Below are positions 29,936-47,729 of a stretch of DNA of 64,000 bases, piece by piece. The notes below the pieces were generated by a model. It was not told the origin of the DNA. It saw nothing but the letters and a program-made list of their open reading frames with translations, and did no database searches. The stretch is from positions 372,001 through 436,000 of the forward strand of contig JACQXA010000004.1 of the NCBI GenBank assembly GCA_016208975.1, written 5' to 3'. The stretch's first letter is position 1. The number at the start of each line of letters is the position of its first letter. The stretch is from Nitrospinota bacterium (GTDB taxonomy: Bacteria > Nitrospinota_A > UBA7883 > JACRLM01). Both the position numbers and the translations under genes were made by a program.

Positions 29936-31588
29936 TTACTGCATGTCTATATAGCCGCAGGGGCAGTTCTCGGCGCACTTGCTACAACCGATGCAGTTCT
30001 CCAGCTTAAAGGCGTAATCCTTCGGGCCGTTCTTTATGACCGCGTTGTCCTGACAGTACATCCAGCAGTTCTCGCAGTCGAAACAGGCGCCGCAGGACAT
30101 GCACCGGGCCGTCTCGGCCTGTACCTGCTCCAGCGTCAGGGAAAGGTTGGCCTCCTTGAAGCTCCGGCGCTCCTCCAGCGGGATGGTGGAGTAGTTGTTC
30201 CGGGGCGCGTTCTTGTACCAGCCCAGGAGCATCTTTTCCTTCACGGCGATCCCGCCATTCTGCTCCACCACCATTTCCCTGCCGCGAAGCTTGTTGTCTA
30301 TGTTGACGGCGGCCTTGCGCCCCAGCCCCACCGCCTCGGTGACCAGCCCCAGTTTCAGGGTTACGTCGCCGCCGGCGAACACGTTTCCTTCCGATGTCTC
30401 GAAATGCTGGTTCACCCCAATCCATCCGTCGCCGTTCGAAAACTTTTCCAGCCCGGCGTAATCGGGTTTCTGGGACACGGCGGCGATGACGGTGGTGGCG
30501 GGCATCACGAACTCGGAGCCTTCCACGGGTTTGGGCCTTCTTCTGCCGGAAGCGTCCGGCTCGCCGAGCTCCATGCGGATCATCTTCACGCCGGTGGCGC
30601 GCCCGTCGGCGCCCTTGACTATCTCCACCGGAGCGGCCAGCTCTTCCAGCTTCAAGCCTTCGGATAGGGCCTCGTCCACCTCGTGGGAGATGGCGGGCAT
30701 CTCCTTGCGGGAGCGGCGGTAGGCTATGGTGACGTTGGCGCCCAGCCGCCAGCTGGTGCGGGCGGCGTCTATGGCGGAGTCTCCCCCGCCGATGACCACC
30801 ACCGTGTCGCCTATCTCCACCTTCTCGCCCTGGTTGATCTTGTTGAGATACGCGGCTCCTGTGAACACGTTTGGCGCGTCCTCGCCGGGGATGTCCAGGG
30901 TTATGCCGGTGTGGGCGCCTATGCCCAGGTAGATGGCCTGGTAGCCGCTCTTTATCTGGTCGAAACTTATGTCCCGCCCTATCTTGCAGTTGGTCTTAAG
31001 CTCCACCCCCAGGTCGAGGATGCGGCCTATTTCCGCCTTCAACACCTCGCGGGGGAGGCGGTAGCTGGGGATGCCGTAGCGCAACATGCCGCCCGCCTCG
31101 GGGAACTGCTCGAAAATGGTAACCTTGTAACCCCGCCTGGCCAGCTGGTAGGCGCAGGAAATGCCCGCAGGGCCCGCGCCAATCACGGCGATTTTTTCGG
31201 CATGGGTTTCATCGGTGAGTTTCGAAAGTTTCAAACCGTTCTGTATGCCATAGTCGCCGATAAACCGCTCGACATTGTTGATGGCCACCGGGCCGCCGTC
31301 ATCCTCCTGCTTATACTGCCGGTTGCACCCCCCCTCGCAGGGATGGGGGCATACCCGGCCCATCACCGCCGGAATGGGGTTTTTGTCCACCAGCTGGCGC
31401 CACGACTCTTCTACGGCGTTGCCCTCGGCTATGTTGCGAAGGTAAAAGCGGATGGGCTCCGAACTGGGGCAGGCCACCTGGCAAGGGGGCGTTTTGGGCT
31501 GATATTTCGGGCGGAGCGAAGAGCCCGCCGAGGAAGCGCCGGACTTGGCGGCGAAACCCCTGGTTTTTTTCTTAACGACTATAGCCAT
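29936..31588 (-). CDS. dsrL: DsrL-type NAD(P)H:acceptor iron-sulfur flavoprotein
   Basis: A 550-residue relative of the glutamate synthase small subunit. An N-terminal Fe-S region (C36, C40, C80, C84, C88) is followed by the FAD fold VIGAGPAGISC at about 135-145, the NAD(P)H fold VVVIGGGDSAIDAA at about 268-281, and a C-terminal double cluster ferredoxin (CMSCGACFDCENC, CIGCSKCAENC). In Allochromatium DsrL passes electrons between DsrAB and NAD(H). This copy is about 100 residues shorter than the Allochromatium form, which bears on its subtype. It is last in the dsrC-M-K-L block. Confidence 0.9.
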   Translation of the reverse strand: MAIVVKKKTRGFAAKSGASSAGSSLRPKYQPKTPPCQVACPSSEPIRFYLRNIAEGNAVEESWRQLVDKNPIPAVMGRVCPHPCEGGCNRQYKQEDDGGPVAINNVERFIGDYGIQNGLKLSKLTDETHAEKIAVIGAGPAGISCAYQLARRGYKVTIFEQFPEAGGMLRYGIPSYRLPREVLKAEIGRILDLGVELKTNCKIGRDISFDQIKSGYQAIYLGIGAHTGITLDIPGEDAPNVFTGAAYLNKINQGEKVEIGDTVVVIGGGDSAIDAARTSWRLGANVTIAYRRSRKEMPAISHEVDEALSEGLKLEELAAPVEIVKGADGRATGVKMIRMELGEPDASGRRRPKPVEGSEFVMPATTVIAAVSQKPDYAGLEKFSNGDGWIGVNQHFETSEGNVFAGGDVTLKLGLVTEAVGLGRKAAVNIDNKLRGREMVVEQNGGIAVKEKMLLGWYKNAPRNNYSTIPLEERRSFKEANLSLTLEQVQAETARCMSCGACFDCENCWMYCQDNAVIKNGPKDYAFKLENCIGCSKCAENCPCGYIDMQ

Positions 31589-31642: not shown

Positions 31643-33139
31643 TTAAACGCCCACCTTGCCGCTCAATACAACGGCGTTGGAGACCAGCTGATGCACGCTG
31701 GCCACCACGTCCATCCCTATCCCGTAATTGGGCAGGACCTTGGTGAACTGGGCCTTGCAGATGGCGCATATCATGGCCATGGTGTTCACCCCTTTGTCGC
31801 GCATCACCTCGCTCAACGCCTGGGCGCGGGGCATGGCGCCTTTCACCCGAAGGTCCATCAGTTCGTCTGTCAAAAGCCCGCCGCCGCCGCCGCAACAGAA
31901 GGTGACCTCCTTGGTGGTCTCCTCGTCCATCTCCACGAAGTTGTTGCATACGGCCTTTATCACCTCGCGGGGAATCTCGAACTGGCCGCCTGGCATATCC
32001 CCCATGCGGGAGCCCCGGGCCACGTTGCAAGAGTCGTGATAAGTGACCACCAGGCTGTCGTTGGCGCTTTTGTCTATCTTGATGCCGTCCCGCTTTATAA
32101 GGTCCAGCGTGAACTCGCAAATGTGGGTCGGGTTCCGGTATTTGGGGTCCAGAAAATCGAAGGGGCCTATCAGGGTGTTCCAGAAGCTGTAAGCCACGCG
32201 CCAGGCGTGCCCGCATTCCCCCACCACTATGCGTTTGACCTTCAGGTCGTGAGCCGCGTCTTTAATCCGCTGGGCCACTTTTTTCATGGTGTCGTAGTTG
32301 CCGATGAACATGCCGAAGTTGGCGAACTCCGACGCGTAAGAGCTGACCGTCCAGCTTACCCCCGCCTCGTGGAACACCTTGCCGTAGCCGGTGAAGCCCT
32401 CTATGTGCGGGGAACTGAAAAAATCCGCCGAGGGGGCGATAAGCAACACGTCGGCCCCGGCCTCGTCCAGCGGGTATTTGACCTCCACCCCGGTGACCTC
32501 CTGCACGTCTTCGGCCACAAACTCCAAAGTGTTTTGCAAAGCGGCGGGATTGATGCCCAGGTTGTTGCCCACGGTGAGGACCTTGCCCAATATCTCGTTG
32601 CAATATTTCTGGCCGATGCCCACGCTGTCCATAATCTCCCTTGCGGCCATGGACACCTCGGCGGTGTCTATCCCGTAGGGGCAGAACACCGAACAGCGGC
32701 GGCACTGGGAACACTGGTGGAAATAGCTGTACCATTCCTCCATCACGGTCTCGGTGAGGTCTTCGGCGCGGGCCAGGCCGGGGAAAAGTTTCCCGCCCAG
32801 GGTGAAATTCTTGCGGTAAACCTTCCGCATAAGCTCCTGCCGGGCCACGGGCATATTGTTGGGGTCGCCAGTGCCAAGGTAGTAATGGCACTTGTCGGCG
32901 CAGGCGCCGCACTTTACGCAGATGTCCATGAAAACCCGGAGAGAGCGGTATTTATCGAGCAGGCCGCCCATTTTTTCAACTGCTTTTTCGCTCCAGTTCT
33001 CCACCTTGGCGCCGGGGAACCCAAGCCCGGTGTTGTGGGCTTGGGATGCCGGATAGGGTTTCAATCCGGCGGTGGCGCCGGGCTTGATGGCGGGGATTTC
33101 TATCTTACCGGTCAACTGTTCGGTCTCTACTTTCGCCAC
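31643..33139 (-). CDS. dsrK: DsrK, catalytic iron-sulfur subunit of the DsrMKJOP complex
   Basis: A 498-residue HdrD-like cytoplasmic subunit. Two [4Fe-4S] ferredoxin motifs (CVKCGACADKC near 105, CSQCRRCSVFC near 150) are followed by CCG-type segments (YHDSCNVARGS and CCGGGGGLLTDELM) that build the noncubane cluster for disulfide chemistry. It exchanges electrons with the DsrC trisulfide/disulfide. It lies 21 bases after dsrM. Confidence 0.95.
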   Translation of the reverse strand: MAKVETEQLTGKIEIPAIKPGATAGLKPYPASQAHNTGLGFPGAKVENWSEKAVEKMGGLLDKYRSLRVFMDICVKCGACADKCHYYLGTGDPNNMPVARQELMRKVYRKNFTLGGKLFPGLARAEDLTETVMEEWYSYFHQCSQCRRCSVFCPYGIDTAEVSMAAREIMDSVGIGQKYCNEILGKVLTVGNNLGINPAALQNTLEFVAEDVQEVTGVEVKYPLDEAGADVLLIAPSADFFSSPHIEGFTGYGKVFHEAGVSWTVSSYASEFANFGMFIGNYDTMKKVAQRIKDAAHDLKVKRIVVGECGHAWRVAYSFWNTLIGPFDFLDPKYRNPTHICEFTLDLIKRDGIKIDKSANDSLVVTYHDSCNVARGSRMGDMPGGQFEIPREVIKAVCNNFVEMDEETTKEVTFCCGGGGGLLTDELMDLRVKGAMPRAQALSEVMRDKGVNTMAMICAICKAQFTKVLPNYGIGMDVVASVHQLVSNAVVLSGKVGV

Positions 33140-33160: not shown

Positions 33161-33886
33161 TCAGGCCCGCCATGGGTTCACATGCCTGCGCTCCCGGCAA
33201 TCGTCCGCCTGGTTGCGCGTGGGGGAGAAAAATATTCCGCCAAGATGCATGAGCTTTGAGAAAGGGAAATAAACCATCAGTAAAATCACTAGCCCCAGAT
33301 GGAGCATGAACATGGGGTCTTCCGGCATCTGCCTGGGAGAAAAAGTGATTACGCTCATCATGAAGTCTTTCACCATGGCCACGTCGGTGCGGATTACGAA
33401 TTTCATCAACAGGCCCGTGGCGGCAATGAGGCCGATAAGCGAGAGCGCGAAGAAATCCGCCCCGGAGCTTATGTACCGGGCCCTGTCCACCCACAGCCTG
33501 CGGGCGAAAAGATAACCGGCGGCCCCCAGCAATATCACCCCGGCCCATATGCCCGCCGGGCCCAGGTAGGCGATAACCTCCGGCACGGGATGGAGAAAAT
33601 AACGCAGATGGCGGAAAATGACCACTGCGAAGGCCACGTGAAAAACATAGCCCCCCAGCCAGGTCCATTTGTTGCCCTTGAACAGGCTTGTGAACAGGAG
33701 CACCTCCCCCGCCAGCCTCAGGGCCACCCCACCCTTTGTAGTGGGGGCCGGGGTTGTGGGGATTTTCAAGGGCGCCGGGGTGGAGGCGTATCCATAGATT
33801 TTCACCAGAAACCCCGCAAGAAACACGAAGCCCGCCATGTAACACAAGACCGCGAACAAAACCGACAATCCGGACAATTCACCCAT
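33161..33886 (-). CDS. dsrM: DsrM, membrane cytochrome b subunit of DsrMKJOP
   Basis: A 241-residue NarI-like inner-membrane protein with about six hydrophobic segments and conserved histidines (VFHVAFAVVIFRHL, MLHLGLVILLMVYFPFSKLMH) for two b haems. It exchanges electrons between the quinone pool and DsrK. It lies between dsrC (111-base gap) and dsrK. Confidence 0.92.
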   Translation of the reverse strand: MGELSGLSVLFAVLCYMAGFVFLAGFLVKIYGYASTPAPLKIPTTPAPTTKGGVALRLAGEVLLFTSLFKGNKWTWLGGYVFHVAFAVVIFRHLRYFLHPVPEVIAYLGPAGIWAGVILLGAAGYLFARRLWVDRARYISSGADFFALSLIGLIAATGLLMKFVIRTDVAMVKDFMMSVITFSPRQMPEDPMFMLHLGLVILLMVYFPFSKLMHLGGIFFSPTRNQADDCRERRHVNPWRA

Positions 33887-33997: not shown

Positions 33998-34330
33998 CTA
34001 CACGCAACCGGTGGGCTTGGGCAGACCGGCTATTTTGCAAGCCTGTTTGGCGGGCCCGCCCGGGTAAAGCTCGTACAGGTACTTGGTGTTGCCCTTCTCC
34101 GGCCCAAGCTTTTTGCCGATGGCTTTCGTCAGGATCCTTATCATCGGGGCTATTTTGTATTCGTCATAGTACTCCCGAAGGAAATTGACGACCTCCCAGT
34201 GGTTCTCCGTCATCTGGATACCCTCGGTTTGGGCCAGGTAACCGGCCACGTCCTTGTTCCATTTGTCGAGGTTGAGAAGGTATCCGTCCTCATCGGTCTC
34301 ATAACTTACGCCATCAAGTTCAAAAGCCAT
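33998..34330 (-). CDS. dsrC: DsrC sulfur carrier protein
   Basis: A 110-residue protein with both conserved C-terminal cysteines (C98 and C109) in the arm ACKIAGLPKPTGCV, so it is a true DsrC and not a one-cysteine TusE. It carries sulfur as a trisulfide between DsrAB and DsrMKJOP. AGGAGG precedes the ATG. It leads the dsrC-M-K-L block. Confidence 0.97.
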   Translation of the reverse strand: MAFELDGVSYETDEDGYLLNLDKWNKDVAGYLAQTEGIQMTENHWEVVNFLREYYDEYKIAPMIRILTKAIGKKLGPEKGNTKYLYELYPGGPAKQACKIAGLPKPTGCV

Positions 34331-35643: not shown

Positions 35644-35694
35644 CTACAGGCCCCACCTGTTTACTTAGTTCACTTCATGGCTTACAATATGGTC

Positions 35695-35940
35695 ATGAAA
35701 AAGCTTAACGTCCACGAGGCCAAGACCCATCTTTCGCGTTACCTTGAGATGGTGGAAAAAGGCGAGACCATATTGCTGTGCAGGCGCAACGTGCCGGTGG
35801 CCGAGATACATCCCGTTGCCCCCACCAGGAAAAAGCCCCGCCCAATCGGGCTGGCCAAGGGCAAATTCAAGATGAGCGCGGATTTTGACAAGGCATTGCC
35901 CAAAGCGCTCATTAAGCTGTTCACCGGCGGGAAACCTTGA
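35695..35940 (+). CDS. Phd/YefM-type antitoxin
   Basis: An 81-residue protein beginning MKKLNVHEAKTHLSRYLEMV, the classic Phd/YefM DNA-binding start, with GETILLCRRNVPVAEIHPV following. It represses its own operon and neutralises the VapC-type toxin encoded next, with which it shares a TTGA overlap. Two other ATG codons lie just upstream in frame (35677 and 35689), and no clear ribosome site decides among them. Confidence 0.88.
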   Translation: MKKLNVHEAKTHLSRYLEMVEKGETILLCRRNVPVAEIHPVAPTRKKPRPIGLAKGKFKMSADFDKALPKALIKLFTGGKP

Positions 35941-36323
35941 AGGTATTGCTGGACACCTGCGCGTTCATTTGGATCGTCACAGGCTCCAACGCCCTTTCAA
36001 AACACGCCAGGGCCGTTTTTTCCGATCCGGGCAACGAGGTCTATTTAAGCGCTGTTTCTATATGGGAAATGGGCATCAAACGGGCCCTTGGAAGGCTGGA
36101 GTCAACCGGGGATTTCGCCGTTAGCATCATGGAACAGCGGGAACTGCATGGCATCCAACCATTACCGCTGGAGGAGGGATCCGCCGCGAGCCTGCCGAAG
36201 CTCCCCTTGATCCATAACGACCCGTTCGACAGGATGCTGATCTGCCAGGCATTGACGCATGGCATGGCGATTCTTACCCCCGACAAAGAAATATCCAAAT
36301 ACCCGGCGCGGGTGGTCTGGTAA
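35937..36323 (+). CDS. PIN domain toxin (VapC type)
   Basis: A 128-residue PIN-domain ribonuclease. Acidic residues are visible in VLLDTCAFIW, AVSIWEMGIK, and NDPFDRMLICQA plus LTPDKEI. It is partner to the Phd-type antitoxin upstream and starts at a TTG overlapping the antitoxin stop. The module sits between the two dsr blocks. Confidence 0.9.
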   Translation: MKVLLDTCAFIWIVTGSNALSKHARAVFSDPGNEVYLSAVSIWEMGIKRALGRLESTGDFAVSIMEQRELHGIQPLPLEEGSAASLPKLPLIHNDPFDRMLICQALTHGMAILTPDKEISKYPARVVW

Positions 36324-36377: not shown

Positions 36378-36659
36378 TCAGCTGTCTTTCAGGTAATTCT
36401 TTAAATCACGATAGTAGTTTTCGTGAGGCCCAAGCATTATCAACTCCAGGTTCGCCCCGGCTTTTCGATACGCAAGAAGGTATTGGGTGGATTTAAGTTT
36501 GAACTTGTAGACGAACACCCCTTTCAGATCGCTTTTCTTTTGTTCCCCGATAGAAATATCCTCCGCGATCTTGCGAATATGCAGGTCTAGTGTCTCCTTT
36601 TCCTTTTTCGAAAGTTTTTTTACTCTCTGTCCAAAGGATCTGGACTGGAATATTTTCAT
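36378..36659 (-). CDS. RelE/ParE-type toxin
   Basis: A 93-residue protein with the basic RelE/ParE pattern (FGQRVKKLSKKEKETLDLHI, then YLLAYRKAGANLELIMLGPHENYYRDLKNYL). It is probably an mRNA interferase or gyrase inhibitor. It follows its antitoxin gene by three bases. It is convergent with the Phd/VapC module. Confidence 0.85.
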   Translation of the reverse strand: MKIFQSRSFGQRVKKLSKKEKETLDLHIRKIAEDISIGEQKKSDLKGVFVYKFKLKSTQYLLAYRKAGANLELIMLGPHENYYRDLKNYLKDS

Positions 36660-37345: not shown

Positions 37346-38575
37346 TTATCCCCAGAACTCGTGGACTTCCCGGGCTTCGGCCAGCTCCGCCTCGGGCGGG
37401 ATATGCACGGCCTCGGTGGGTAACATGGGCCAAAGTTTCACGCACAGGCCGAACCCGAAGGCCACCACGCCCATAAGGCCCAGCGAATACAGAGCCTCCA
37501 CCAGCGACACGCTGTAATTGGCGAACTGGCCGTCACCGAACACGCTGGTTATCTCCTTGTCCGGGAAGAACTCCAGCGGCATGACCTGGGCGGGGATGAC
37601 TATGATGTACCTCTCGAAGAACACCCCCACCACCTGCAGGGCCGAGGCCACCAGCACCCAGCCAGTGGCGCGGCCATACCTGGGGTGGAACACTATCATT
37701 GTGGGTATGACAAGCCCGGACAGCCCCAGCCCCAGCCAGAACATGAGGGTGTATTTGCCGCCGTGGAACAGCAGGAACGAGGCGGCCTCGTAATTCTTCG
37801 GCGCGTAGGACCGGGTGACGTTCTCGATGAACAGGAAGTAGAACACCACCATCATGAACACGCCCATCAAGCGGCCAAGAGAGCTTATGAGGCGGTTGTC
37901 CAGCCTTCTGCCCGTGGCGCGGAACATGAGATAAAGCGCGATTATCATAAGCCCCGTGCCGGACGACAGCGCCGCCGCTATGAACGAAGGGGGCAGAAGG
38001 GGCGAGCCGTAAAGCTCCCGCACATATACGAAGCCGAATATGGCCCCGGTGCCGGAGTGGACGCCCACGGCGATGAATACCGCCGCCAGGCCCAGTATCT
38101 TCATCCACCGGGTGTTGTCCTTAAACTGCGCTATCAGGTACAGGAAACCCACCAGCATGTAGCTGTTGTATAGAATGGCGTTCAGCGAAAACATGGAGCG
38201 GGGCTGGAAATGGAAGAACGGAACCAGTATCCTGTCGGGCCTGCCCCAGTCCAGTATGATGGCCATCAGCGCCGCCATGATAAGCAGGATCGCCAACAGC
38301 GCCGCTATCCGGGCGAAAGGTTTGTATTCCGTCTTGCCGAACACCGACGACATGGCCGACAACACCAGCGACCCCGCCGACGCGCCGATGAGGAACACCG
38401 CCATCACGATGGGCATGCCCCAGGGAACCTGGTTCGTCATGCCGGTCACATGATGCCCGTTTATGAACATGTACAGGGCGGTTAAAGGCGCCAGCGCCGC
38501 CACAAGGCCCGTGAGGGCCATGTATGCCCAGTACGAGGCGGAGTTGCCTTCGACTTTCGTGAATTTAATGTTCAT
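37346..38575 (-). CDS. dsrP: DsrP, NrfD-like membrane subunit
   Basis: A 409-residue polytopic quinone-interacting protein of the NrfD/PsrC family with about ten membrane segments (for example MAVFLIGASAGSLVLSAMSS). With DsrO and DsrJ it forms the periplasm-facing module of DsrMKJOP. It lies 12 bases after dsrO and is last in the dsrA-B-J-O-P block. No convincing terminator was found downstream. Confidence 0.93.
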   Translation of the reverse strand: MNIKFTKVEGNSASYWAYMALTGLVAALAPLTALYMFINGHHVTGMTNQVPWGMPIVMAVFLIGASAGSLVLSAMSSVFGKTEYKPFARIAALLAILLIMAALMAIILDWGRPDRILVPFFHFQPRSMFSLNAILYNSYMLVGFLYLIAQFKDNTRWMKILGLAAVFIAVGVHSGTGAIFGFVYVRELYGSPLLPPSFIAAALSSGTGLMIIALYLMFRATGRRLDNRLISSLGRLMGVFMMVVFYFLFIENVTRSYAPKNYEAASFLLFHGGKYTLMFWLGLGLSGLVIPTMIVFHPRYGRATGWVLVASALQVVGVFFERYIIVIPAQVMPLEFFPDKEITSVFGDGQFANYSVSLVEALYSLGLMGVVAFGFGLCVKLWPMLPTEAVHIPPEAELAEAREVHEFWG

Positions 38576-38587
38576 CCCCGCGTCCTC

Positions 38588-39334
38588 CTATATACCCACA
38601 TAGAAGACTCTGGGATTTGTGCCGAGATCGGCCCTTATCCGCGTGGCCTTGCCGGTTCGGACTATCTTTGACACCTCGCTGTCCGGATCGTTGAGGTCGC
38701 CGAACAACATGCCGCCGCCCCCCGCTTTTGCGCAAGCCTCCACGCAGGCGGGCTTTTCGCCCTTGTCGATCCGGTGGACGCACAGGTCGCACTTCTCCAC
38801 CACGCCGTGCATGCGGATGGGAGCGTCCGGGTTTTCCGCCGGGTCGTGCTCCACATGGCGGGAGACGAAAGAGCGCGCCTTGTACGGGCAGGCTATCATG
38901 CAGTACCGGCACCCGATACACCGGTGTTTGTCCACCAGCACGATGCCGTCGGCGCGGGTGAAGGTGGCCGCCACGGGGCAAACGTGCTCGCAAGGGGCGT
39001 GCTGGCAGTGGTAGCACATGGCGGGCATGGCCCGCTCCTCGGCCCCGGGAACGCCCTTCTGTTTGAAAGTGATTTTCCGTATCCAGTGGATGTCCAGCTC
39101 CGGCTCCGGGAAATGGGGGACGTTGTTTTCCTTCCGGCAGGCGTCGTAACAGGCGGTGCAGTCCGGCGAGCATTTGTTGATGTCTATCACCATGCCCCAC
39201 TGGTTCCGGGCCGAGGCGCCGGAATTTTCGCCCTCCGCCATAGCCGCTGTTAACAGCGGCGCGCCGGAAGACACAACCGTGCCCGCGGCCATCACCGCGC
39301 CTATCTTCAGGAAATCCCTTCTGTCCACGCTCAT
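38588..39334 (-). CDS. dsrO: DsrO, Tat-exported iron-sulfur subunit
   Basis: A 248-residue protein. A Tat signal with twin arginines (VDRRDFLKIG) is followed by four [4Fe-4S] motifs of the NrfC/HybA type (CSPDCTACYDAC, CYHCQHAPCEHVC, CIGCRYCMIAC, CDLCVHRID). It relays electrons between DsrJ and DsrP on the periplasmic side. The frame extends upstream to 39382, but the ATG at 39334 overlaps the dsrJ stop as ATGA and gives the Tat signal at the very start. Confidence 0.95.
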   Translation of the reverse strand: MSVDRRDFLKIGAVMAAGTVVSSGAPLLTAAMAEGENSGASARNQWGMVIDINKCSPDCTACYDACRKENNVPHFPEPELDIHWIRKITFKQKGVPGAEERAMPAMCYHCQHAPCEHVCPVAATFTRADGIVLVDKHRCIGCRYCMIACPYKARSFVSRHVEHDPAENPDAPIRMHGVVEKCDLCVHRIDKGEKPACVEACAKAGGGGMLFGDLNDPDSEVSKIVRTGKATRIRADLGTNPRVFYVGI

Positions 39335-39708
39335 TTCAACGCCAGGGCCTCTTTTTCCGGGTAATAATGGCAGTTCCAGCATTCCGGCTTAACACCGACG
39401 TAGCCATGGCAGGAATCGCAGAACTCCGCCCTGTTGGGATGGCAGGAGCGGCACCCCTGGATGCCGTGGCCGGGTTTCCGCAAACCATCGCGCACGGCGT
39501 CTTCCCGGCTATGCATGATGAGAGTCATGTGGTTGTGGCGCATCCAGTCCTTGTCCTTCACGCATTTCTTCGCGGGATCCTGTCCGGGAAGGGACGGCGA
39601 CGCCGAGGCGTTCGAGGAAAGGCCCACGGAGCTTGCGTTGTAGATGAAGGGGATGGAGAAAAGGAGGCCGAATACCACCACGGCCAGGATTCCCGCCTGT
39701 TTTAACAC
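39331..39708 (-). CDS. dsrJ: DsrJ, membrane-anchored trihaem cytochrome c
   Basis: A 125-residue protein with an uncleaved-looking N-terminal membrane segment (about 4-25) and three CxxCH haem sites (CRSCH, CDSCH and CWNCH) in its last 40 residues. It is the periplasmic redox subunit of DsrMKJOP. It overlaps dsrO by four bases and follows dsrB after about 125 bases. Confidence 0.93.
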   Translation of the reverse strand: MLKQAGILAVVVFGLLFSIPFIYNASSVGLSSNASASPSLPGQDPAKKCVKDKDWMRHNHMTLIMHSREDAVRDGLRKPGHGIQGCRSCHPNRAEFCDSCHGYVGVKPECWNCHYYPEKEALALK

Positions 39709-39834: not shown

Positions 39835-41238
39835 CTACTTGGAAGCCCCTTCCTCCCTGGGGAGGCCGATGAAACTTCCGCCGAAATACTCGTACACGGT
39901 CTTGCCTTCCATCATGTTCTTGTTGATGGCTTCCTTGCACATGCCCTTGGTGACCGCGTCCTCGCCGTACTTCTTGATCATCTCCTTGGTCAGGTCGCCC
40001 GCCTTCAGCTTCTTCTTTCCGGCGGTGGCCTTCAATATGGCGTACATGGCGTCCGCCAGCGTTTCGATGGAAGGAGCGTTGGCCGAAACCGTCGTCTTTA
40101 CGCCCTCCATTTCGCGCAGATGGCCGCGGGTATCGGCGTAACCGGCCCCGGACACGCGTTTGAACGCCACTGACGTCATAAGGCTTTTCGAGGCGCCCTT
40201 GAAGTCGTCAATATGGTACTTGGTGAACTCAATGCCGGTCTCTTTGAAGAACCTGGGCCAGCCGATACGTTCCACCCACTCGCCCACGCGCTCCCAGTTC
40301 CTGGCGCCTTTGGAGTACGCCTCGATGATCTTCACGATCGCCTCGGTGGCCTCGGGCCAGCGGGGCGGGTTGTTGGGGATGAACGGTATGGCAAGCTTGG
40401 AGAACGTGGGGGCGTGCCGCGCGTTGGACACCTTGCCGCCCACCCATATGGAAAGCCCGTCGTTCAGCGGGTCGGCCAGGGGCATGGCGGGGCATGTGGT
40501 GTAGCAGTTGCCGCAATACATGCACTTGTCCTCGTCAACCTCCACCGACGGGTTGCCATCCACGGTGGACGGCTTTATGGCCGCCGTGGGGCACGAGGCC
40601 ACGGTTGTGGGTATCTCGCAAAGGTTTTTCAGGTTGGCGTGGTTCACCCGCGGCGGACGCCGGTGGATGCCCAGTATCGCTATGTCGGAGCAGTGCACCG
40701 CGCCGCACATGTTAAGACAACAGGCCAGGGCTATTCTCAGCCTGTTAGGGAGCTTGTGGCTCTTGAAGTGGTCGAACACTTCGTCCATCACCGCTTTCAC
40801 CACTCCGGAGGCGTCGGTGGCGGAGGTGTGGCAGTGCACCCAGCCCTGGGTATGCACTATCTGGCTTATGGAGTTGGCGGTGCCGCCCACGGGCAGGCCC
40901 CCCTTCTCCAGGTCGGCTATCAGAGGCTCCACATTGGCCTGGTTGCCCAGCAGGAACTCCACGTTGTTCCGGCTGGTGAACCGCATGAACCCGTCGGCGT
41001 ACTTGTCGGCCATGTCGGCCATGAACCGCAACGTGTCCACGCTGATGAGCCTGGCGGTGCCTGCGCGCACGGTGTAAATCTTGTCGCCCGACTCGGCGGC
41101 GTGCACCAGCACGCCCGGCCGGGGTATCTCGTGCCACACCCATTTACCGTAGTTTTTCTTGATAAGCGGGTGCAGGAACTTTGAATAATGAGGCGGACCT
41201 ATGTCCGTTACCCTGTCTTGGAGAGTGGCGTCTGCCAT
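39835..41238 (-). CDS. dsrB: dissimilatory sulfite reductase beta subunit with DsrD-like C-terminal extension
   Basis: A 467-residue DsrB, about 90-110 residues longer than usual. Residues 1 to about 355 are canonical: [20 protein letters not shown], the sirohaem/Fe-S segment [11 protein letters not shown] (173-183), and a ferredoxin motif [11 protein letters not shown] (239-249). Residues about 393-460 form an extra segment whose helix-helix-hairpin pattern ([11 protein letters not shown], then [20 protein letters not shown], then [12 protein letters not shown]) resembles the winged-helix protein DsrD, an activator of DsrAB in sulfate reducers. The domain match is by eye. It lies 63 bases after dsrA. 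Confidence 0.92.
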
Positions 41239-41301: not shown

Positions 41302-42498
41302 TCAGGCGTCGGAGCCTTCGCCCTCTTCCTCGAAGAACTCGTCGTAGAATATGTACGGGTTGTCCCTGGGGAACTTCACCATCTCCGGAGCCGGATCCAG
41401 ACCCACGGCCTCCAGGAAGTTGCCGAACCCGACACGCTGGATAAGCTCGCCTATGCGTTCGCGGTTCATGCCGTACTCGTCCCAGAAATCCCATATCCGC
41501 TCCACCAGGGAGTGGAACTCTTCGTAATCCGGATCGTCCAGCTTCATAAAGGGCACAATCACCGACGACAGCAGGGCGCCTTCCACTATGGGGGCCTTGC
41601 CGCCGATAAGGATGGCCGCGCCCCGCTCCTTGCCGGGCCGCAGGGCCTTGGGCAGAACGTTGATGCAGTGCATGCACTTGGTGCATTCGGCGTCGTCTAT
41701 GGTCAGCTTGTCCCCTTCCAGCTCGATACAGCGGGTGGGGCACATCTTCACCACTTCGTCCTTGATGTTCTTCCCGCGGGCCAGGTATTCCTTTATGGCG
41801 GCCTGGTCTACCTGTATCTCGTCCAGCCATGTGCCGATGACGGACACGTCCGAACGGGCAATGGAGGCGGTGCAATCGTTGGGGCAACCGGAGAACTTGA
41901 ACTTGAACTTGTAAGGGAAGGCCGGGCGGTGCATGTTGTCCTGGTAGGTCATGGTGATGTTGTAAGACATCTCCAGCGTGTCGAAACAGGCCCACTCGCA
42001 ACGGGCGGGGCCCACGCAACAGGACGGGGTCCTCATGGCCGAGCCGGAGCCGCCCAGGTCCCACCCAGCGTGGGTAAGCTCCTGGAAGCAGGCTTCCAGG
42101 TTTTCCGTTTTGGCGCCCAGGAATATCACGTCGCCGGTGGTGCCGTGCATGTTGGTAAGGCCGGAGCCGTACTTGTCCCAAATATCGCAAAGCTGGCGGA
42201 TGGCGTCGGAAGTGTAGAACCAGGCCGCGGGCTGGTTGATGCGCATGGTGTGGAACTGGGCCACTTCCGGGAATTGCTCACCAACGCTGGAGTACCGGCC
42301 GATGACGCCGGAACCGTAACCGTGAACGCCCACCAGGCCGCCGTGCTTCCAGTGGCCCACGCGGTCCCTGTACGAAAGCTCCAGTTGGCCCAGAAGGTCT
42401 TTTACCATGGGCTTTCTGACGGCCATCTTCTTCATCTCGCCGATGAAGCTGGGCCATGGCCCCTTGTCTAGCTCGTCGAGCAACGGGGTATCTGACAT
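41302..42498 (-). CDS. dsrA: dissimilatory sulfite reductase alpha subunit
   Basis: A 398-residue DsrA. It has the cluster and sirohaem segments [18 protein letters not shown] and [15 protein letters not shown], and the inserted ferredoxin motif [12 protein letters not shown], whose fourth position lacks the usual Cys-Pro spacing within view. With DsrB it catalyses six-electron interconversion of sulfite and sulfide-level sulfur on DsrC in the cytoplasm. GGGAGGCG precedes the ATG. It is first in the dsrA-B-J-O-P block, divergent from cbiA/dsrN. Confidence 0.96.
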
Positions 42499-45376: not shown

Positions 45377-45713
45377 GAGAGTGACGGAACCTACGCCGTG
45401 TGCGTAGATGAAAACAGGGATATCCACCACGCCACGTCGTTGGATGATTGAATGGGCGAAGCCGGAGCGTCCGCGCCGGCTCGCGCCTCCCCTTTCCCCC
45501 TAGCCGCCATTACATCGCTAACCCGTGGTCGCCCGGCCACGTTTCTTTACCCTCGGCCCGTGCGGAAGATTGCGCCACGAAGGGCTGGGTGATGGTTGTT
45601 AATTTCCATTCTTCACCCCCCCCTGCCCCTCCCATCAATGGAGGGGTAAATAAAGGAAACCGTGGTCGGGCGACCACGGGGAAGCAATTAGAAGGCGTAA
45701 CAGTTTGGCGGCG
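45377..45713. other. intergenic region holding the first long direct repeat
   Basis: No gene is seen. The stretch 45496-45692 is nearly identical to 46155-46351. Confidence 0.7.
45496..45692 (+). repeat. 197-base direct repeat, left copy
   Basis: It begins CCCCCTAGCCGCCATTACAT and ends GGGGAAGCAATTAGA. It differs from 46155-46351 at only about half a dozen positions plus two single-base indels. It includes two REP-like units. The two copies flank the nucleotidyltransferase gene. Confidence 0.92.
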
Positions 45714-46037: not shown

Positions 46038-46154
46038 TCAAGCCAACCTTTTTAATATCCAACCAGTTCAGCGTTTATGCCCAAATTATAATTTAATCCG
46101 CGTCCGCATATGCAAACTTCTTTTCGCTCATCAATGGCGCTCCACCCCAGCCTC

Positions 46155-46351
46155 CCCCCTAGCCGCCATTACATCGCTAACCCGTGGTCGCCCGGCCACG
46201 TTTCTTTACCCTCGGCCCGTGCAGAAGATTGCGCCACGAAGGGCTGTGTGATGGTTGTTAACTTCCATTCTTCACCCTCCCCCTGCCCCTCCCATCAATG
46301 GAGGGGTAAAGAAAGGAAACCGTGGTCGGCGACCACGGGGAAGCAATTAGA
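46155..46351 (+). repeat. 197-base direct repeat, right copy
   Basis: Partner of 45496-45692 in the same orientation at an offset of 659 bases. The nucleotidyltransferase gene lies between. Confidence 0.92.
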
Positions 46352-46659: not shown

Positions 46660-47016
46660 ATGAAATTCGCCATATTGATCCACGAAAGCCCGTATAACCA
46701 CGAGGCTTCGGACACCGCCTACAACTTCACCATGGCGGCTTTGCACAAGGGACACACTGTCGAGAGGATTTTCTTCTATCACGATGGGGTCATCAACGTG
46801 TCCAACCTTGCCGAGCCGCCCCAGGACGACCGCAATATCCCCAAACGCTGGAGTGACCTGGGGACGGAGTTCAACATAGACATTGTGGCCTGCATAGCCG
46901 CCAGCAAGCGCCGGGGAATAAAGGACGGGTTCATTATGAAGGGTACCCGCATTTCCGGCCTGGGCCAGCTTACTGAAATGACCATCTCAGCCGACAGGCT
47001 GGTAACTTTCGGCTAA
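46660..47016 (+). CDS. dsrE: DsrE, sulfur-transferase subunit
   Basis: A 118-residue DsrE-fold subunit of the cytoplasmic DsrE2F2H2 hexamer, which hands sulfur to DsrC in sulfur oxidisers. The sulfur-binding cysteine is C78 (VACIAASKRRG), the same number as in Allochromatium DsrE. The frame opens at 46603, but the ATG at 46660, with GGAGAGGG upstream, begins the conserved MKFAILIHESPYNH. First of dsrEFH. Confidence 0.93.
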   Translation: MKFAILIHESPYNHEASDTAYNFTMAALHKGHTVERIFFYHDGVINVSNLAEPPQDDRNIPKRWSDLGTEFNIDIVACIAASKRRGIKDGFIMKGTRISGLGQLTEMTISADRLVTFG

Positions 47017-47043
47017 ACCGGACGGAACAGACAAGAGGGAACG

Positions 47044-47418
47044 ATGGAAGAGAACGAAAACGTAAAAAAGATAATGTTCATCATGCGCCAGGCGCCCCAC
47101 GGCTCCATATACAGCTACGAAGGGCTGGAAACGGTGCTGATAATGGCCGCTTTCGAGCAGGACCTTTCCATGGCGTTCATCGGCGACGGCGTGTTCGCCC
47201 TGGTGAAGGGGCAGGACACCTCCGCCCTGGGCATTAAAGGCTACATAAAAACATATTCGGCGCTGGAAGATTACGGGGTGGAAAAATACTACGTGGACAG
47301 GCGCTCCATGGAAGAGCGGGGGCTTAAGCCGGAGGATTTCGCCATTCCGGTGGAGGTGGTTGAAGACTCGCAGATCGCCGCGTTCATGGAAGAGCAGGAC
47401 GCCTGTATCCCATATTAA
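47044..47418 (+). CDS. dsrF: DsrF, sulfurtransferase complex subunit
   Basis: A 124-residue TusC/DsrF-like subunit with the family start MFIMRQAPHGSIYSYEGLET and GDGVFALVKGQD. It lacks the active cysteine of DsrE, as is usual. It lies 27 bases after dsrE and 17 before dsrH. Confidence 0.92.
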   Translation: MEENENVKKIMFIMRQAPHGSIYSYEGLETVLIMAAFEQDLSMAFIGDGVFALVKGQDTSALGIKGYIKTYSALEDYGVEKYYVDRRSMEERGLKPEDFAIPVEVVEDSQIAAFMEEQDACIPY

Positions 47419-47435
47419 ACAGGAGATAATTTACA

Positions 47436-47729
47436 ATGCTACATACGGTAAACAAATCGCCGTTCAACCATGGCTCACTGGACGAATGTGTCCGTTTCGC
47501 CGCCAAAGGCGCGCCCATTCTGCTTATTGAAGACGGCGTTTACGCCGCCAAAAGCGGAACGGCTTACGAGGGGTCGCTCAAACAGATCATGCAATCCCAC
47601 GAAGTGTACGCGCTGGAGGCGGATCTTAAAGCCCGGGGCGTGGCCGCTCTGGCCGATGGGGTGAAAGTGGTGAACTACGACGGGTTTGTGGAGCTGGTGG
47701 AAAAACACAAGATGATGGCCTGGGTGTAA
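47436..47729 (+). CDS. dsrH: DsrH, sulfurtransferase complex subunit
   Basis: A 97-residue TusB/DsrH-like subunit beginning MLHTVNKSPFNHGSLDECVR, with the conserved cysteine at C18, and LIEDGVYAAKSGT following. It completes the DsrEFH hexamer. A terminator follows. Confidence 0.92.
   Translation: MLHTVNKSPFNHGSLDECVRFAAKGAPILLIEDGVYAAKSGTAYEGSLKQIMQSHEVYALEADLKARGVAALADGVKVVNYDGFVELVEKHKMMAWV

Follow-up and report, generated by a model that had tools for sequence, protein, structure and literature searches.

A single open reading frame (39835-41238, minus strand) in the window, the 64,000-nucleotide stretch of DNA from an uncultured Nitrospinota bacterium analysed here, encodes a protein of 467 amino acids in which the dissimilatory sulfite reductase subunit DsrB is followed on the same chain by a DsrD-like tail. 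DsrD activates DsrAB allosterically, as PMC10591310 reports from Ferreira et al. 2022. The reading that we favor, with a probability of roughly 80%, is that the gene encodes DsrB with this activator joined at the C-terminus and permanently tethered.

Architecture of the fused gene

The dsrB model TIGR02066 spans residues 26-355 of the protein with 513.2 bits, compared with an equivalog cut-off of 341.5, and thus stops where the initial annotation had placed the end of the canonical part of the 467-residue DsrB. The DsrB part is 62-72% identical to DsrB from DsrD-bearing genomes. The frame is unbroken from DsrB through the tail, and beyond residue 355 the ORF is matched by no family in NCBIfam or Pfam. 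The gene can be divided as follows.

40168-41238, minus strand: DsrB catalytic part, residues 1-357 (TIGR02066), with two siroheme/4Fe-4S motifs
40069-40167, minus strand: linker, residues 358-390, standing where relatives have a stop codon and an intergenic gap
40108-40110, minus strand: in-frame ATG (M377) inside the linker, the sole internal start able to yield a complete free DsrD
39859-40068, minus strand: DsrD-like winged-helix domain, residues 391-460, delimited by AF2 models and homologues
39835-39858, minus strand: C-terminal REEGASK and stop codon; free-standing DsrD likewise conserves a PxEEGA ending

Modelled alone by AF2, the tail is predicted to fold in the order helix-helix-helix-strand-strand, a winged helix, with a mean pLDDT of 84; the predicted elements are helices at 391-405, 413-424 and 431-443 and wing strands at 448-450 and 456-458. 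In the AF2 model of the full-length protein, residues 391-460 again form a separate domain, here behind a stretch of very low confidence (pLDDT <50 across most of residues 340-384). Since this model has a pTM of 0.45 and lacks the partner DsrA, no inference about docking was drawn from it.

The tail belongs to a divergent DsrD family

Searches with the tail by tblastn gave sequences of 43-62% identity in 80 genome contigs, and a tail profile gave 119 related stretches in genome contigs; 80 loci were examined. The hosts include Acidobacteria, Planctomycetota, Actinomycetota, Gemmatimonadota, Chloroflexi, Nitrospirota, Nitrospinota and Desulfobacca, among others. A dsrB gene adjoins the tail homologue in 70 of the 80 loci, directly upstream in 69, and all 70 pairs are unfused. 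The tail is 41-59% identical to 71 free-standing homologues of about 85 amino acids, a match to a real protein family which indicates that it is not a chance open frame.

The canonical DsrD family (PF08679; 1UCR/1WQ2, 'Protein dsvD') shares with the tail a winged helix of about 75 residues and a gene beside dsrB, but the tail draws no hit from the Pfam model even with the threshold relaxed to E 10, and the relationship runs via intermediates. The cut-off of PF08679 was reached by none of 72 tail-family members (three weak matches, best E 0.08). Used alone against Pfam, NCBIfam and PDB sequences, the tail found no DsrD; a profile and intermediates were needed. The likeness to free-standing DsrD noted in the initial annotation thus holds for a divergent subfamily but not for the Desulfovibrio type itself.

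Intermediates were sought among 395 genomes from the phylum of a Desulfovibrio-like genome, where the tail-family profile matched bona fide sulfite reducers. One sequence, L195, scored both with PF08679 (65.2 bits, cut-off 24.2) and with the tail-family profile (25.0 bits, whole-genome E 9e-5), and the dsrB-adjacent proteins L196, L198-L200 and L203 gave weak scores with both. The ending of L195, LEYWSSGSTTYISLP, is consistent with the register in which the end of the tail had been set against that of DsrD, LEYWSSGSTTMYGLK. Homologues of the tail in SbA1 are named DsrD in PMC6018796. The place of the tail after dsrB, the naming of its homologues and the intermediates that join it to PF08679 support its assignment as a probable DsrD of a divergent subfamily, linked to canonical DsrD through those intermediates; together with the winged-helix model, they bear out the proposal that a DsrD-like domain had been added to DsrB. 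Surveys that rely on Pfam would undercount DsrD, as PF08679 misses this whole family in many phyla.

Five further proteins from Desulfobacterota-type genomes (L193, L194, L197, L201 and L202; 275-312 aa) partially matched the divergent-DsrD profile (E 2.5e-10 to 0.006) and could be additional DsrD-containing fusions or unrelated winged helices.

Comparisons of fold were not diagnostic for DsrD. Alignment by hhalign of the tail family with the canonical DsrD profile gave the correct order of elements at a probability of only 11%, and Foldseek against the PDB returned winged helices generally, all with E >0.001 and with 1UCR not within the best 50 of 1474 matches. Winged helices mostly bind DNA, regulators and Z-alpha domains head the structural matches, and helix 3 of the tail bears unusual changes, all of which would suit a domain that binds DNA or plays a structural part and has lost its role as DsrD. 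We consider such a role quite unlikely, given that close homologues of the tail are dsrB neighbors in many phyla, as a Dsr protein would be and a regulator would not, and that all universal residues of the tail family are retained. The changes affect four positions that hardly vary in free DsrD, where helix 3 ends and in the turn after it (R/K to N439, L to N441, D to M443 and S to E444), and activation may therefore be altered. Overall, the tail is conserved about as well as unfused DsrD at equal DsrB distance (49.7% identity compared with 53.8 +/- 5.9%), which speaks for continued function.

The tail lies on a long branch in the DsrD tree; accelerated evolution was not borne out when DsrB distance was held equal.

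Predicted consequences of tethering

DsrD is used as a marker of the reductive Dsr direction, and its contact with DsrAB matters for this reason. In the arrangement that we propose, both DsrD domains of the alpha2-beta2 enzyme, one per DsrB, would be tethered to their target at high local concentration, so that activation would no longer hinge on how much free DsrD is present and occupancy would hardly vary. The fixed stoichiometry claimed earlier follows from the one-chain architecture. The companion claim, that the fusion reveals where DsrD docks, does not follow from it, given a linker that is long and, by prediction, disordered; such a linker would probably let the domain get to the site used by free DsrD. 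For structural work, the fused protein would offer a single chain from which the activator cannot dissociate.

A long, putatively disordered linker with an in-frame ATG at residue 377 might also allow the chain to be cut, or translation to be re-initiated internally, such that free DsrD does the work. We give this only a small chance, as no cleavage signal was recognised, the Bilophila protein described below is reported by title as a fused subunit, and the ATG lacks an upstream Shine-Dalgarno sequence, whereas GGAG, GAGG or AGGA precedes 53 of 64 free-standing DsrD starts. The genome does not contain the separate intact dsrD that the initial annotation had named as evidence against a fusion: no second copy was detected with the tail-family alignment A1, with which the search was repeated after PF08679 had matched nothing in this genome and likewise nothing in control genomes.

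The linker also holds a GGAGGG followed by an ACG; to see in these a relic start codon is speculation.

Origin of the fusion

The rule among relatives is dsrA-dsrB-dsrD, the last two genes being separated by a few dozen bases. Compared with this ancestral arrangement, the window has a linker of about 30 residues in place of the stop codon and gap, and no free DsrD is left. In 24 examined loci dsrD shares the frame of dsrB, mostly a few codons past the dsrB stop, and loss of the stop would thus be a short evolutionary step; this count was made by reading through in-frame stops, a joint MAFFT alignment of DsrB and free DsrD rows having misplaced the DsrD rows. The DsrB C-terminus can be aligned with that of relatives up to V362 (GTG), with which the relatives' stop position aligns.

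The fusion is known from one assembly only and is absent from DsrB in the other 23 Nitrospinota genomes examined. A sequencing or assembly error, in which a miscalled stop codon joined truly separate genes, would fit this isolation, the many relatives with dsrB and dsrD in frame and a single stop between them, and the several linker codons that a single substitution would turn into a stop (K360, Y367, E376, E378, K381 and S385), but is the least likely of the alternatives, since it would take two changes to make any stop of the GTG at the relatives' stop position, most relatives have a shorter spacer, the only ATG from which a whole DsrD could be made lacks the usual Shine-Dalgarno sequence, and the assembly is of high quality (2.97 Mb in 4 contigs, 100% complete, 0% contamination).

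Other fusions involving DsrD

The impression that no DsrB-DsrD fusion had been described proved mistaken, since one from the gut bacterium Bilophila wadsworthia RZATAU is named in the title of a 2001 paper by Laue et al. (J Bacteriol 183:1727). By that title, DsrD is joined to DsrB in one dissimilatory sulfite reductase subunit, as in the window; the Nitrospinota protein differs in coming from another phylum and carries no claim of sulfate reduction, a comparison made with the title. On this evidence the architecture is already known, and the window holds a probably independent second case, not the first.

We also found the same architecture in another genome. We read the C-termini of 48 DsrB proteins from the class of a Desulfovibrio-like genome (G046), 18 of which had been chosen for long open frames or as spot checks. 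One (L158, G317:C77:3300-5500) carries DsrD C-terminally on DsrB behind a linker of about 25 residues, with 99.7 bits for PF08679. This genome belongs to the same family (f30) as G046. It is possibly Bilophila or a relative.

The DsrD of L158 is canonical, whereas the window tail is of the divergent subfamily, and the two DsrB sequences sit in separate parts of the tree; both differences point to L158 as an independent fusion and argue, in our analysis, against a common origin of the window fusion with that of Bilophila. Different DsrD subfamilies and different phyla likewise suggest that the window fusion is independent of Bilophila's. As judged from these sequences, the DsrB-DsrD fusion appears to have arisen at least twice. 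Independent natural fusions provide a direct physical hint that DsrD acts on or beside the DsrB C-terminus. Such fusions may already be dealt with in the work of Barbosa et al. 2024 (Protein Sci, 10.1002/pro.5222) on how DsrD interacts with DsrAB.

In a quick tree built from DsrB only, the window DsrB grouped with DsrD-bearing reductive-type sequences, apart from most Nitrospinota DsrB (support 100). The nearest rows (support 84) were from G019 and G014, genomes of the same class and of different Nitrospinota genera. In both (L089:5980-7951 in G019, L004 in G014), DsrD is followed on one chain by an Ala/Pro-rich linker and the iron-sulfur flavoprotein DsrL. These proteins share with the window the same divergent DsrD and belong to the DsrB clade nearest to it, but carry their DsrD at the N-terminus of DsrL instead of on DsrB. 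A separate dsrL gene follows dsrD at most other loci; in the window dsrL lies 8 kb away. Within one clade, DsrD has thus been joined to its left neighbor once and to its right neighbor in two genomes.

The sister fusions suggest a second contact for DsrD. We raise the possibility, tentatively, that in this small Nitrospinota clade DsrD also sits where DsrAB and DsrL meet and helps to couple DsrAB to the NAD(P)H oxidoreductase DsrL. No mention of a DsrD-DsrL fusion was found in the literature searched, and the words 'fused' and 'fusion' are absent from PMC11406059 and PMC10591310. As far as that literature goes, the sister DsrD-DsrL fusions, the fusion of a divergent DsrD in Nitrospinota and its mixed Dsr setting are new.

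Genomic setting and Dsr gene set

The window contains Dsr genes in two halves of a cluster on the minus strand, with further genes on the plus strand. Immediately downstream of the fused gene come dsrJ, dsrO and a dsrP-like gene.

41302-42498, minus strand: dsrA, the partner subunit (TIGR02064, 572 bits), directly upstream of dsrB
39331-39708, minus strand: dsrJ (NF038038, 88.8 bits, slightly below the cut-off of 100)
38588-39382, minus strand: dsrO (NF045797, above cut-off from residue 17; the true start is probably downstream of the first ATG)
37346-38575, minus strand: dsrP-like NrfD-family membrane subunit (best match NF045798, under cut-off)
33998-34330, minus strand: dsrC (TIGR03342), with both C-terminal cysteines present (QACKIAGLPKPTGCV)
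33161-33886, minus strand: dsrM (NF038037, 209.7 bits, under the cut-off of 300)
31643-33139, minus strand: dsrK (NF045796, above cut-off)
29936-31588, minus strand: dsrL, 550 aa, the sole good DsrL match in the genome
42998-44416, plus strand: cobB/CbiA family gene (TIGR00379, above cut-off), in the place of dsrN
46660-47418, plus strand: dsrE (46660-47016; TIGR03012) and dsrF (47044-47418; TIGR03010), both above cut-off

The DsrL encoded here shares 57% identity with the DsrL portion of the fusion in G019. Elsewhere in the genome, AprBA and QmoABC are encoded. The products of dsrE and dsrF are markers of sulfur oxidation. Judged by gene content, the Dsr set is mixed, with reductive-type DsrAB and DsrD alongside DsrL, DsrE and DsrF, and looks reversible. 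Nitrospinota have been called a 'transitionary phylum' because DsrD, DsrE and DsrL occur together in their genomes (PMC11406059), and the same mixture of signatures has been reported in PMC10591310. Since Pfam misses the divergent DsrD and searches for a separate gene miss a fused one, a survey would count DsrD as absent from the window's genome, which might then be mistaken for that of a pure sulfur oxidizer.

A third small gene (47436-47729) follows dsrF in the place of dsrH. Between the halves of the dsr cluster, a Phd-like antitoxin gene and a PIN-domain-like gene (35677-36323, plus strand) face a RelE-like gene (36378-36659, minus strand); the PIN-domain-like and RelE-like genes were named by eye, and NCBIfam matched neither. 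An inverted CGTGGTCG...CGACCACG motif occurs in two intergenic stretches (45500-45690 and 46150-46350), each about 190 bases long and nearly identical to the other.
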